A DNA stretch of 64,000 bases from an uncultured Jannaschia sp. Its GTDB lineage: Bacteria; Pseudomonadota; Alphaproteobacteria; Rhodobacterales; Rhodobacteraceae. The stretch's first letter is position 1. Each line of letters opens with the position of its first letter. Below, piece after piece: positions 26,150 to 30,116 of the stretch. Location: contig NZ_CANNEZ010000002.1 in assembly GCF_947503795.1 (NCBI RefSeq), positions 248,001 through 312,000 on the forward strand. The letters run 5' to 3'. Under the pieces are notes generated by a model, which saw nothing but the letters and a program-made list of their open reading frames with translations, was not told where the DNA came from and made no database searches. A program made the position numbers and the translations under genes.

Positions 26150-26566
26150 ATGGGCTGGAGCATCCATCACGTGAACCTCGAGGCGCGCGACGTGCGGCGC
26201 ACGGCGGCGTTCTACACCGACATCCTCGGCATGAAGGAGCGTCCCTGGACCTTCCCCGAGACCCGCGGCTACCTGCCGGGCGACCCCGACAAGCTGGCCC
26301 TGCTGGGCGACGGGCGGGACGGACATTCCGGCCTCCACCTGATCGCCCCGGACGAGAGCTTCGCCGAGAAGAACGACCTCGCCTTCAACCCGTCCGTCGG
26401 CGGCCACGTGGCCTTCAACGTCCCCGACCTCGACGCGGTGATCGCACGGCTCCGCGCGGCGGGGGTGAAGCACTCGGTGACCAGCGAGTTCGCCATCCCG
26501 GGACTGCGGCATGTGTACCTGGAGGACCCGGAGGGGAACTTGGTGGAGGTGAATGGGGGGATATAG
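26150..26566 (+). CDS. VOC (glyoxalase-like) family protein
   Basis: The 138-residue protein has the paired beta-alpha-beta modules of the vicinal oxygen chelate fold: IHHVNLEARDVRRTAAFYTDILG at the start and VAFNVPDLDAVIARLRAAG with HVYLEDPEGNLVEV at the end. Metal ligands would be His7, a central histidine in GLHLIAPDE or GGHVAF, and Glu in NLVEV. Activity could be glyoxalase, dioxygenase or resistance-type; nothing selects one. An AAAGGA site precedes the ATG. Base composition drops abruptly immediately after its stop codon. Confidence 0.85.
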   Translation: MGWSIHHVNLEARDVRRTAAFYTDILGMKERPWTFPETRGYLPGDPDKLALLGDGRDGHSGLHLIAPDESFAEKNDLAFNPSVGGHVAFNVPDLDAVIARLRAAGVKHSVTSEFAIPGLRHVYLEDPEGNLVEVNGGI

Positions 26567-26629
26567 AGAGAAACGGCTTGAAGATCACTTCATCCATGTG
26601 AATATGCTGTCGACCATACGTGAAAGCTT

Positions 26630-27607
26630 ATGATGAATATTGTGACGAGAAAAAGTAATAATTCGTCGATGAGGCTCGCACAGCTATCCTCAAAATTAGA
26701 GAGATCTCCCGCTGTCGACGCATTTCCTAACCTAGCGATCTTCGCGACTGGCTCATACGCGCGTTTAGAAGCTTCCGCTCACTCTGATATCGACTTGTTT
26801 TTCGTTCATGATGGCTCTCTCGACTCTATGGCAGAGCGAAGGACTAAGTCGCTGCGCTTATTCGCGCATCTAATAGATGTGGCCGACAAGCTCGAATTCC
26901 CTAAATTTTCTAATGATGGTGAGTATCTGAGGGTTGTCCAGAAGGACGACATTCTAACGAACCTTGGCGGGCGTGACGATGATCATCTCAACTTTTTTAC
27001 GACACGTATGCTCCTGCTGCTTGAAAGCAGATGTGTACATGGCGAACATGTGTACCTTAGGATTGTAGAAGATGTAATCGCGTCATACTTTCGAGATTAC
27101 CCTGACCATAAGCAAGAATTCAGCCCTACATTCTTAATAAATGACATATTACGGTTCTGGAAGACGCTGTGCCTAAATTATGAGCACCGGCGGAACCAGC
27201 CCAATGACGGATCTACAAAGAGAATTAAACAGAAAACAAAAAACTTCAAGCTGAAGTTCAGCCGTATGTTAACTTGCTTCGGTTCGGTCGCGCTCATAGT
27301 TGCAAACCGAAATTGCTTCAGGAAGCCAGACCTGGTGAGTATGTGCAAGAACACTCCTCGACAGCGTCTGGAAACAGCTTGCGAAGGCAGGCTAAGCACG
27401 CAAGGCAATCTCTCCGCAGCATTCGATCTATATGACTGGTTTCTTGAAGAGACTGATGTGCCAGAATCTGATTTGATGGATAAGTTTCAGTCGACGGACT
27501 ATAAGAGAGTCGCATTCTCAAAAGCTGACGAATTTGGGGATCACATATTCTCCATCATCTCGGATATTGCGGGTGAGACGGACTACATGCGCTACTTGGT
27601 GATCTGA
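26630..27607 (+). CDS. GlnD/DUF294-like nucleotidyltransferase with a conserved helical C-terminal domain
   Basis: The 325-residue protein has a polymerase-beta-type nucleotidyltransferase core: G41-S42 in FATGSYARLEAS and the acidic pair D53-I-D55 in HSDIDLFFVHDG, as in the GlnD/DUF294 group. The following segment with LRVV and LLLLESRCVHGE matches that group's helical insert; Glu99 or a nearby acid may be the third catalytic residue. The C-terminal half, with NDILRFWKTLCLNYEHRRN and NFKLKFSRMLTCFG, is a distinctive helical domain I recall from uncharacterised proteins but cannot name. It would transfer NMP to an RNA, protein or small molecule. ATGA overlap couples it to the 2H gene. Codon use is unlike its neighbours. 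An ATG at 26633 is an alternative start. Confidence 0.75.
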   Translation: MMNIVTRKSNNSSMRLAQLSSKLERSPAVDAFPNLAIFATGSYARLEASAHSDIDLFFVHDGSLDSMAERRTKSLRLFAHLIDVADKLEFPKFSNDGEYLRVVQKDDILTNLGGRDDDHLNFFTTRMLLLLESRCVHGEHVYLRIVEDVIASYFRDYPDHKQEFSPTFLINDILRFWKTLCLNYEHRRNQPNDGSTKRIKQKTKNFKLKFSRMLTCFGSVALIVANRNCFRKPDLVSMCKNTPRQRLETACEGRLSTQGNLSAAFDLYDWFLEETDVPESDLMDKFQSTDYKRVAFSKADEFGDHIFSIISDIAGETDYMRYLVI

Positions 27608-28218
27608 TGTTCTTCGTCGCAGTAGGTTTTTCAGACTTGCGAGTTGCACGGATGCTAGACGTCATGAGAATCATCTGCGAGCCTGATGCTGCCAGGCCGT
27701 CTCATGTAACACTCCGCGGCCCCTATGATGCGAAGAAGAACGTTAGCAATTCCTTGCTTGAGAAGGACGTAGGGCAGATGATTGTCCGCGGGCCCAGAAC
27801 TTTTTTTTCTGACGCATATGCGCCTCGGGAACAGAACACCGTATATCTTGGAATAGAGATTTCGGGGATCGGCGACTATTGGCATAAACCACAGTATCCA
27901 GACGGGACTCCTCATCTGACGATCTACGATGGAAAGAGCCGGAAATTCGCGTGGATAGTATTGACGACTTTACGGAAGCATTCGTGGAACTTCTCAGTAA
28001 ACTCAACACCAATGCGGATCCTCGAGAAGAAGAAGGGTGTAGAGCAAGCCTATCTAGAAGATTTCGAGAATTATAGACTCGCACTTGACCAAGTGTTTTT
28101 CAAGGGAGTGGCGTTCAACCAGATACGCGCACTGTCTGACATTGAACGGGCTGGCGCTCTAAATAAGGCTTGTCATATTCTACACGACCTCACCCGCCCA
28201 TTCTCCAAGCAATATTAA
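27607..28218 (+). CDS. 2H phosphoesterase (2'-5' RNA ligase/cyclic phosphodiesterase superfamily)
   Basis: The 203-residue protein carries the two H-x-T motifs that define the 2H superfamily: His33-Val-Thr35 in SHVTLRGPY and His103-Leu-Thr105 in TPHLTIYDG, about 70 residues apart as usual. Enzymes of this fold open or hydrolyse 2',3'-cyclic phosphates and 2'-5' linkages in RNA or oligonucleotides, and some viral members destroy nucleotide second messengers. The C-terminal 60 or so residues form an extra helical part. The gene begins within the stop of the nucleotidyltransferase gene, so a joint pathway on a nucleotide or RNA substrate is likely. What that substrate is cannot be read from the sequence. 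Confidence 0.72.
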   Translation: MFFVAVGFSDLRVARMLDVMRIICEPDAARPSHVTLRGPYDAKKNVSNSLLEKDVGQMIVRGPRTFFSDAYAPREQNTVYLGIEISGIGDYWHKPQYPDGTPHLTIYDGKSRKFAWIVLTTLRKHSWNFSVNSTPMRILEKKKGVEQAYLEDFENYRLALDQVFFKGVAFNQIRALSDIERAGALNKACHILHDLTRPFSKQY

Positions 28219-28316
28219 TCGCCAATTGCGACTTAACGCTGCCAACCAACCGTGTGGGCCCGCGTTTGTCTACGCCAAACGCTTCCGCCCACCGATTCCC
28301 CAATCTGCCTGCGACG

Positions 28317-30116
28317 TCACCCATCCATCTTGAGGGCACTGATGAACGCGGATTGGGGGATTTCCACCTTCCCGAATTGCCGCATCTTCTTCTTGCCCGC
28401 CTTCTGCTTCTCCAGAAGCTTCTTCTTCCGCGTCGCATCCCCCCCGTAGCACTTGGCCGTCACGTCCTTGCGGAGCGCGGCCAGTGTCTCGCGGGCGATG
28501 ACCTTGCCTCCGATGGCGGCCTGGATGGGGATCTTGAACATGTGGCGGGGGATCAGCTCCTTGAGCTTCTCGCACATGGCGCGGCCGCGGGTCTCGGCGC
28601 GGTCGCGGTGGACCATGATGGAGAGCGCGTCGACGGGCTCGTCGTTGACGAGGATCTGCATCTTGACCAGCGAATCCTCGCGGTAGCCGAGCATCTGGTA
28701 GTCGAAGCTGGCATAACCCTTGGTGACGGATTTCAGCCGGTCGTAGAAGTCGAACACCACCTCGTTGAGCGGCAGGTCGTAGACCACCATGGCGCGGGGG
28801 CCGGCATAGGTCAGGTCCATCTGGATGCCGCGGCGGTCCTGGCAGAGCTTCAGCACGTCGCCGAGATAGTCGTCGGGCACGAGGATGGTCGCCTTGATGC
28901 GCGGCTCCTCGAGATGGTCGACATGGGTGAGGTCGGGCATGTCGGCGGGGTTGTGGAGCTCCGTCATCGTGCCGTCGCGCATGTGGACGTGGTAGACGAC
29001 CGAGGGCGCCGTGGTGATGAGGTCGATGTCGTATTCGCGCTCGATCCGGTCCCGGATGACCTCGAGATGGAGAAGCCCGAGAAAGCCGCAGCGGAAGCCG
29101 AAGCCCAGCGCGGCCGAACTCTCGACCTCGTAGGAGAAGGAGGCGTCGTTCAGGGCCAGCTTCTCGATGGCGTCGCGCATGTCCTCGAAGAGCGCGGAAT
29201 CCACGGGAAAGAGGCCGCAGAACACCACCGGCTGCGACGGCTTGAAGCCCGGCAGCGCGGTCGCGGTGCCCTTCTTCTCGTGGGTGATGGTGTCGCCGAC
29301 GCGGGTGTCGCGCACCTGCTTGATCGACGCGGTCAGGAACCCGATCTCGCCCGGCCCCAGCACCGGGATGTCGGCCATGGCGGGGCGGAAGACGCCGATC
29401 CGGTCGACATGGTGGATCGTGTCGTTCGACATGAAGCGGACGCGGTCGCCCTTCTTGAGGTGCCCGTCGATGATGCGGACGAGGACGATGACGCCGAGAT
29501 AGCTGTCGTACCAGCTGTCCACGAGCATCGCCTTCAGGGGCGCATCCGGGTCGCCCTTCGGCGCGGGCAGGCGGTCGACGATGGCCTGCAGCGTCTCGCG
29601 GATGCCCTCGCCGGTCTTGGCCGAGACGAGCATGGCCTCGGAGGCGTCGATGCCGATCACGTCCTCGATCTGCTCGCGCACGCGGTCGGGCTCGGAGGCG
29701 GGAAGGTCGATCTTGTTGAGGACGGGGACGATCTCGTGGTCGGCGTCGATCGCCTGGTAGACGTTCGCCAGCGTCTGCGCCTCGACGCCCTGGGTGCTGT
29801 CGACGACGAGGAGCGAGCCCTCGACCGCGCGCATGGAGCGCGAGACCTCGTAGGCGAAGTCGACATGGCCCGGCGTGTCGATGAGGTTGAGCGTGTATTC
29901 CTCGCCATCGGCGGCGGTGAACTGGATGCGGACGGTGTTGGCCTTGATGGTGATGCCGCGCTCGCGCTCGATATCCATCGCGTCGAGCATCTGGGCCTTC
30001 ATGTCGCGCGCCGCCACGGTGTTCGTCTCCTGGATCAGCCGGTCGGCCAGCGTGGACTTGCCGTGGTCGATATGGGCGACGATCGAGAAGTTGCGGATAT
30101 GGGCGAGGTCGGTCAT
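28317..30116 (-). CDS. lepA: Elongation factor 4 (translation back-translocase LepA)
   Basis: The 599-residue GTPase has G1 [15 protein letters not shown]3 [15 protein letters not shown] and G4 NKIDLPAS, followed by the EF-G-like domains and the LepA-specific C-terminal domain ([23 protein letters not shown] and the basic [17 protein letters not shown]). LepA acts on the ribosome under ionic or cold stress. The gene is unaffected by the low-GC islet downstream, whose last bases lie a few nucleotides after its stop. Confidence 0.97.

Follow-up and report, generated by a model that had tools for sequence, protein, structure and literature searches.

A recurrent nucleotidyltransferase and 2H phosphoesterase gene pair from Jannaschia looks like an unstudied defence-type module

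Introduction

A stretch of 64,000 nucleotides from an uncultured Jannaschia sp. (contig NZ_CANNEZ010000002.1, positions 248,001 to 312,000), here called the window, carries a cassette of two genes (Table 1). Gene A encodes a predicted nucleotidyltransferase (NTase), and gene B, directly downstream, encodes a 2H phosphoesterase with predicted catalysis. The locus raises the question of whether the two genes are neighbours by chance or parts of one system, and what such a system would do. A preliminary description of the DNA had proposed that the pair is coupled and may write and erase one modification. MntA is an NTase that acts as an immune regulator with an unexpected partner. NTases of this kind are also described for Clover and, as cited in the same source, Hailong (PMC12265719, partial text). 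Comparisons across genomes and with known folds indicate that the A/B pair recurs and has the look of a defence-type module not studied before.

Results

Pairing of gene A with its partners

Relatives of A were collected with one peptide pattern from an 84,980-species genome collection, and the best 80 of 199 relatives were kept (L011-L090). They comprise A's own branch of 34 loci (L011-L044, E-value 5e-38 or better) and another branch of 46. L012, in which A lies at a contig end, was excluded from the partner count, leaving 33 testable loci. A 2H protein lies beside A at 28 of these 33 loci, and at 27 of them the 2H gene is directly downstream of A. The remaining five loci carry a DEDD exonuclease at A, which overlaps A upstream on the same strand (L029, L034) or is divergent (L023, L024, L026). 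The exonuclease was identified by Pfam in L029 and through a profile built from L029 and L034 in the others, and it matches a 3'-5' exoribonuclease family (3.5e-6). In the other branch, with its 46 loci, no 2H partner was found. At 35 of these an HD protein lies upstream of A, and 12 of the 35 also have a histidine phosphatase downstream; the family matches reported for these two partner folds are 8.8e-11 (HD) and 3.7e-31 (histidine phosphatase). Three of the 46 have a TIM-barrel match; that in L075 is to a frame overlapping A, so its placement is uncertain.

A quick tree was built from 87 A proteins, excluding L006 (a duplicate) and L012, L032 and L044 (cut). A frames longer than 345 residues were reduced to their last 335, and the 2H frame of L015 was trimmed at its start. 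The 28 rows with a 2H partner group together with six DEDD rows, of which one comes from the viral contig L097; this group has a support of 100 in the Shimodaira-Hasegawa-like approximate likelihood ratio test (SH-aLRT). Within it the DEDD rows are a sub-branch (SH-aLRT 90), and the TIM-barrel rows form one branch (99). The partner labels need 9 changes on the tree vs. 49.9 when shuffled. Over 24 loci the identities of A and B co-vary (r = 0.79, with none of 2000 permutations as high), to which whole-genome shared ancestry could contribute. Chance adjacency of A and B was rejected on the recurrent pairing, the few partner changes and the co-variation. The preliminary description had named rare adjacency or non-conserved active-site residues as what would refute the coupling. 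What we found across genomes is a 2H protein beside A in 28/33 own-branch loci, identities that co-vary, and active sites kept in all aligned proteins (42/42 for A, 30/30 for B).

The 2H rows span Pseudomonadota, Bacteroidota, Verrucomicrobiota, Chloroflexota, Campylobacterota and Electryoneota, and their order in the A tree is unlike the species tree as judged by eye. The natural reading is that A and B probably spread horizontally as a pair. The distribution of A is patchy: one of the 20 genus genomes has it (the source genome, with the window copy absent from the 19 others searched), as do 2 of 198 of the family. PDC-M70A, the PADLOC model that matches A, is sparse, at 4 of 398 genomes of the phylum, the source genome included. 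The B profile matched only the source genome among the 398 phylum genomes, and two of 394 family genomes (the source genome and G175), both beside A, which are few cases. Within the fetched A loci, which by design centre on A, all B-profile matches adjoin A.

Gene A

Pfam NTP_transf_2 matches A above its cutoff (2e-5), and the PADLOC candidate defence model PDC-M70A matches residues 7-273 (1.9e-28). The NTase motif G[GS]..R.E...SDxD is present. The core residues noticed in the preliminary description, G41-S42 and D53-x-D55, are in place, and G41, S42, S52, D53 and D55 are invariant in 31/31 and 42/42 aligned rows, the window row included. R45, D118, R126, E132, N171, D172 and R175 are likewise invariant in the 42 rows.

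The AlphaFold model of A, computed from the 42-row alignment, has a predicted local distance difference test score (pLDDT) of 92.1. Foldseek ranks DrrA first, followed by GlnE and MntA, with a modest best E-value of 1.1e-3. Structural comparisons with VIA showed whole-length similarity to DrrA (Z 14.8, a root-mean-square deviation (rmsd) of 4.4, 254 residues aligned) and to the C-terminal half (Z 13.7, rmsd 5.2, 272 aligned) and N-terminal half (Z 12.7, rmsd 5.8, 268 aligned) of GlnE, of which only the top one or two are clear, since VIA itself notes that Z values to ~13 can be common with helical models. An MNT antitoxin comes next (Z 9.2, rmsd 4.9, 136 aligned). HalB is structurally distant (Z 4.7), and other CD-NTases and OAS are outside the VIA list and hence not excluded by it. 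At the sequence level, the active-site motif is where the A5 profile aligns with E. coli GlnD (hhalign 80.7%, E 1.3e-5), and GlnE is matched weakly (21%). Because of these fold and profile matches to DrrA, GlnE and GlnD, A looks like a stand-alone relative of protein-nucleotidylating enzymes, with a predicted activity. The modelled fold points to nucleotide transfer to a protein or other acceptor in preference to a role as oligonucleotide synthase.

The helical C-terminal domain, called distinctive in the preliminary description, proved to be HEPN-like, as indicated by the whole-length matches to DrrA and GlnE. Its conserved positions contain no R-x4-6-H RNase motif in the 42 rows; some R-x4-6-H string occurs in the C-terminal part of 24 of the 42, never as a conserved pair. 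In GlnD, GlnE and DUF294 proteins the helical domain has been assigned to the HEPN superfamily, with 'No' entered for them in what is presumably the RNase-motif column of the table, and DrrA is described as a fusion of NTase and HEPN domains that targets a host protein for adenylation (PMC3710099, partial text).

Several known identities were tried for A. For a role as a CCA-adding enzyme, the A profile gave no match to the part of E. coli Cca compared (369 residues). An assignment as CloB is unsupported: A shows no profile match to P0003 (hhalign 4.8%), a single yardstick sequence taken as CloB-like from its position beside a CloA relative. A classical HEPN-MNT system was also rejected, with the helical domain of A being fused and having no conserved RNase motif. 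A is unlike GlnD proper, which has an HD remover and ACT domains in one polypeptide: neither HD nor ACT families appear in the Pfam matches (to E 5) of its 325 residues.

Gene B

Searches of B against Pfam, PADLOC, NCBIfam and PHROGs gave no match to E 5. Against the Pfam 2'-5' RNA ligase model, three relatives give matches that fall short of its cutoff (L002 0.0092, L016 2.8e-4, L028 0.0046). Both H-x-T motifs that the preliminary description had placed at His33 and His103 are present, and H33-x-T35 and H103-x-T/S105 are kept in 30/30 aligned B proteins, which were picked for their likeness to the B profile as a whole; residue 105 is Thr in 27 and Ser in three. The B model has a pLDDT of 90.8 and a 2H fold. 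Foldseek returned eight PDB matches with a probability >0.9, to YjcG, a phage phosphodiesterase (9q2y), Acb1, a plant cyclic phosphodiesterase and Usb1, which, 9q2y excepted, we take to be 2H proteins. The top entries are 2d4g (7.4e-4), 9q2y, 7t26, 1fsi and 6d2z. By motif and modelled fold, B is a 2H phosphoesterase, with predicted catalysis.

The two genes meet in a TGATG junction, in which the stop codon of A (TGA, 27605-27607) and the start codon of B (ATG, 27607-27609) overlap by one base, suggesting translational coupling. The four-base ATGA overlap reported in the preliminary description is thus incorrect for the window pair; such an overlap occurs in the relative L002. The gene boundaries given there stand.

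Links to restriction-modification and mobile elements

Proteins of 1237-1250 residues carry the 2H domain at their N-terminus in L016, L025 and L028. The L016 and L028 fusions match Eco57I and N6_Mtase, and residues 198-1229 of the L016 protein match a type IIG restriction enzyme-methyltransferase model (5e-177); the L025 fusion was judged by eye from its likeness to these two. In L014 and L042 the 2H domain is N-terminal to an Eco57I-type methyltransferase, the L014 fusion matching a type II methyltransferase model (1.6e-121). Four loci (L014, L016, L025, L028) have the 2H domain joined to a DNA methyltransferase, and a fifth such fusion, in L042, is divergent. In L021 a type I specificity gene (hsdS), a Fic gene and hsdR precede the A/B pair, with hsdR 95 bp from A. 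At least six of the 28 2H loci (L014, L016, L021, L025, L028, L042) touch restriction-modification genes. Because L016, L025 and L028 cluster in the tree, the six do not count as independent events. The statement in the preliminary description that the two parts come with no effector is therefore not general, as some relatives have the 2H domain fused to methyltransferase or restriction proteins. The profile-library scans cover chosen neighbours out of 115 listed neighbour frames.

Some individual loci show further arrangements. The type IIG-like fusions lie at L016:5984-9697, L025:5987-9703 and L028:5961-9713. In L016 and L025 a third gene follows the fusion, encoding 212-213 residues with an ECKR-type motif, a possible nuclease as judged by eye; the L016 protein gave nothing convincing in the profile libraries scanned. 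At L042:2463-6346 one A gene lies between two different 2H proteins, the divergent 2H-methyltransferase fusion and a downstream Pfam 2H-SAK protein (6.4e-19). At L015:5768-8692 a single frame next to A encodes a 2H domain followed by GNAT and weak PIN domains.

Mobile elements were also searched. No relative of A was found in 50,697 phage records with the window A as query (E 1e-3). In scans of viral contigs the A1 and A2 profiles gave no confirmed locus, and the A4 profile gave one, L097; this IMG/VR contig carries A, a DEDD gene and what looks by eye like an integrase. A phage origin was rejected on the lack of relatives in the phage records and the DEDD, not 2H, partner of this lone viral locus. 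A phage integrase lies ~2.6 kb upstream in L033. Among plasmid records B has no match and A occurs in four, none with a 2H partner. One of them, an E. coli plasmid of 4.5 kb (L007), has a family A gene at 711-1706, preceded by an HD-type frame (profile 1e-20) that is missing from the record's gene table. At L008:1-12615 a family A gene and a histidine phosphatase lie in a cluster of sugar or natural-product type with glycosyltransferases, an aminotransferase and transporters. This context suggests that some family A members may serve biosynthesis or self-protection instead of defence.

Discussion

The reading we favour, at a little under an even chance, is a mobile two-gene module of defence type, in which A writes a nucleotidyl modification and B erases it. 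In this scheme A would move a nucleoside monophosphate, with AMP or UMP the likeliest, from a nucleoside triphosphate to a hydroxyl of its target. The acceptor would most likely be a protein, by analogy with GlnE, GlnD and DrrA. B would then cut the phosphodiester so formed by hydrolysis, returning the target to its unmodified state, and phage infection or a rival element would shift the balance between writer and eraser. Where the 2H domain is N-terminal to a methyltransferase or restriction protein, the simplest proposal is that the modification gates that enzyme. We infer the chemistry's direction, the nucleotide, the acceptor and the infection trigger, as well as the horizontal spread of the module. 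A writer-eraser pair predicts a constant writer with an exchangeable hydrolase, and the exchange among 2H, DEDD, HD, histidine phosphatase and TIM-barrel partners fits this prediction. The proposal in the preliminary description that the pair writes and erases one modification thus gains from the recurrent pairing, the co-variation and the other phosphate-ester hydrolase folds in the partner slot. A bolder version appears distinctly unlikely to us: that a new class of immune modules shares A as its writer and nucleotidylates a target reversibly, that at least four unrelated folds (2H, DEDD, HD, TIM barrel) came independently into the eraser slot, and that in the 2H branch the mark would sit on the immune protein itself, as opposed to being a diffusible signal, and switch restriction-modification enzymes on or off, thereby setting the alarm.

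Several observations weigh against the writer-eraser module. A has no conserved acid on strand 102-104 for the third catalytic carboxylate, while D118 is invariant. The best Foldseek matches of A reach only E 1.1e-3 with template modelling (TM) scores of 0.43-0.47, and the Z values are subject to the caution for helical models given above. DEDD exonucleases and HD proteins resembling deoxynucleoside triphosphatases (dNTPases) are atypical erasers of protein nucleotidylation, which fits the alternatives better. Eight of the 46 other-branch loci, all from Thalassospira, have no detected partner; some may be misses, because the Thalassospira loci L071 and L074 give an HD match ~160 bases upstream of A. 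The defence islands looked for in the preliminary description were seen in part only: the window locus and some relatives lie in variable or mobile sites, and at many other loci the neighbours look by eye like ordinary metabolic or membrane genes.

The partner exchange is also compatible with a Clover-like nucleotide-signal pair, in which the NTase product restrains the hydrolase. In such a system, of the Clover, Hailong or OAS/2H-like kind, an effector would be under the control of a free nucleotide or oligonucleotide made by A, and the protein in the B slot would degrade the signal or be the restrained effector itself. 2H and DEDD enzymes degrade short oligonucleotides. The HD proteins beside A in the other branch are arranged like CloA-CloB, with the nearest solved structures of the L057 protein being 2hek, EF1143 (2o6i) and SAMHD1, and two HD partners match the PADLOC dGTPase weakly. 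In Clover itself the NTase product inhibits an HD dGTPase (PMC12265719, partial text). Relatives of A also match oligonucleotide-cyclase models, very weakly (best L002 0.0016, L057 0.0025), but the PADLOC Cyclase models miss the window A, and the HalB model scores it at 17.4 bits against a cutoff of 190. The structural distance of HalB and the lack of detectable relationship to P0003, one sequence whose identity is taken from its position, also speak against a signal, as does the window cassette, which has no separate receptor or effector. The modelled fold of A tips the balance to nucleotidyl transfer onto protein, and we regard a signal system as a serious but rather unlikely candidate.

Repair or editing of RNA 3' ends, with B healing a damaged end such as a cyclic phosphate and A re-adding a nucleotide, is improbable. 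An exonuclease, HD phosphohydrolase or phosphatase would do the healing in the other branches, and every one of the partner folds could act on the ends of RNA or nucleotides. 2H-SAK (Swiss Army Knife) domains occur in RNA-repair proteins, which gives some weight to the 2H-SAK partner of L042, as the exoribonuclease match does for the DEDD partner; but the 2H-SAK protein itself is only weakly like B (hhalign 15%), and A has no profile similarity to the Cca residues tested, while its fold is only weakly like that of an archaeal CCA-adding enzyme (Z 5.1 vs. 14.8 for DrrA). Plain toxin-antitoxin addiction, in which one protein is toxic (A modifying an essential protein or tRNA, or B degrading a nucleotide) and the other neutralises it with no specific anti-phage role, would suit two tightly coupled genes in low-GC cargo, their patchy distribution in the genus and the family, and the SocA/Panacea antitoxin-like gene (4.8e-18) in the same interval of another genus member. 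The 2H-methyltransferase and restriction fusions and the type I operon context suggest more than addiction, which we consider quite improbable as a full account.

The preliminary description could name no described system for the pair. The A family is in fact already listed in PADLOC as PDC-M70A, part of a two-gene candidate phage-defence system, PDC-M70, whereas B matches no PADLOC model. The PDC-M70B proteins of L009 and L010 are TIM-barrel proteins, L010 by Pfam (AP_endonuc_2, 2.4e-7), in contrast to the 2H partner in the window; a TIM-barrel partner also matches the phosphodiesterase CbiR weakly (0.0018). The term PDC-M70 is absent from the literature searched.

The presumed CloA chains (9p8s-9p8v, taken as such by us) match Dgt, while the L057 HD protein is nearest to the structures named above. 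Clover, with its CloA dNTPase and CloB NTase (PMC12265719, partial text), shares the logic of an NTase with a phosphohydrolase and is nearest to the HD-partnered other branch; the window pair has no CloA-type dGTPase neighbour, and its surroundings are the VOC gene and lepA (named by eye). The HD and family A pairs of L045-L067 and others, 12 of them with the histidine phosphatase, form a Clover-like arrangement.

GlnD, the PII uridylyltransferase/removase, and GlnE, the glutamine synthetase adenylyltransferase, resemble the window pair in the NTase motif, the HEPN-like helical C-terminal domain and the principle of writing and removing. They differ in that the window writer and presumed remover are separate proteins, that the remover is a 2H protein and not an HD domain (GlnD) or second NTase (GlnE), and that the window genes are patchy and not core genes. 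HEPN-MNT (MntA-HepT, a type VII toxin-antitoxin system) likewise combines an NTase with a HEPN-type helical domain and AMPylates its partner protein; the partner of A is a 2H hydrolase, with no separate HEPN toxin. B shares both HxT motifs and the fold with known 2H phosphoesterases (YjcG/LigT, Acb1, plant CPDase, Usb1) and differs in a sequence too divergent for Pfam.

Neither the A-2H pair nor reversible nucleotidylation tied to restriction-modification by a 2H fusion is named in the titles and abstract openings of the literature searched, a scope that excludes subscription papers and supplements. By comparison with the known NTase and hydrolase modules of immune type, the 2H version and its methyltransferase fusions would be the new part. 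In a single NTase family the active site is kept, and the partner is swapped among unrelated phosphate-ester hydrolases in a lineage-specific manner. If the partners are erasers, the written bond would be one that 2H, DEDD, HD and TIM-barrel enzymes all cut, and the fusions would tie reversible nucleotidylation to restriction-modification.

Genomic setting of the cassette

The cassette lies in an insert with a guanine-cytosine (GC) content of ~0.45-0.49 vs. 0.68-0.73 around it, and at 2 kb resolution the insert alone falls below 0.63 in the window. Only short, chance-like direct repeats were found around the cassette. A sigma-70 scan was uninformative (two sites found vs. 2.2 expected, both on the minus strand).

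Table 1. Features of the A/B cassette and its flanks, in window coordinates
Feature	Position	Strand	Basis
Gene A (325 residues), nucleotidyltransferase with DrrA/GlnE-like fold: N-terminal core (G41-S42, D53, D55), C-terminal HEPN-like helical domain (~139-325)	26630-27607	+	
Gene B (203 residues), 2H phosphoesterase, H33-x-T35 and H103-x-T105	27607-28218	+	Motif, model fold
TGATG junction, one base shared by the A stop and B start codons	27605-27609	+	Sequence
Low-GC insert between VOC gene and lepA	26567-28316		GC, variable interval in genus
VOC/glyoxalase-like gene, left flank, outside the system	26150-26566	+	Name by eye
lepA (elongation factor 4), right flank, outside the system	28317-30116	-	Name by eye

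The VOC gene is present in 14 of 20 genus genomes, and VOC and lepA bound the interval in 8/8 genomes read out of the 13 others. The interval measures 0.9-5.4 kb, with differing contents. In L115 it holds the SocA/Panacea antitoxin-like gene with an overlapping partner, in L112 an AAA ATPase pair (AriA-like, 1.2e-25, and PDC-M29B, 2.4e-7), in L111 a Schlafen AlbA_2 protein and in L105 a pyridoxamine oxidase-like gene (by eye). The low-GC genes in L114 and L116 have no PADLOC or Pfam match, and the L110 and L113 intervals have no clear low-GC gene. The VOC-lepA interval looks like a small exchange hot spot, and the window A/B pair is low-GC cargo in a probably horizontally acquired insert. Inside the L112 interval, a 131-base copy of the lepA 3' end (L112:5414-5544) is 85% identical to the original, which suggests insertion at lepA, from which such a partial copy is expected.

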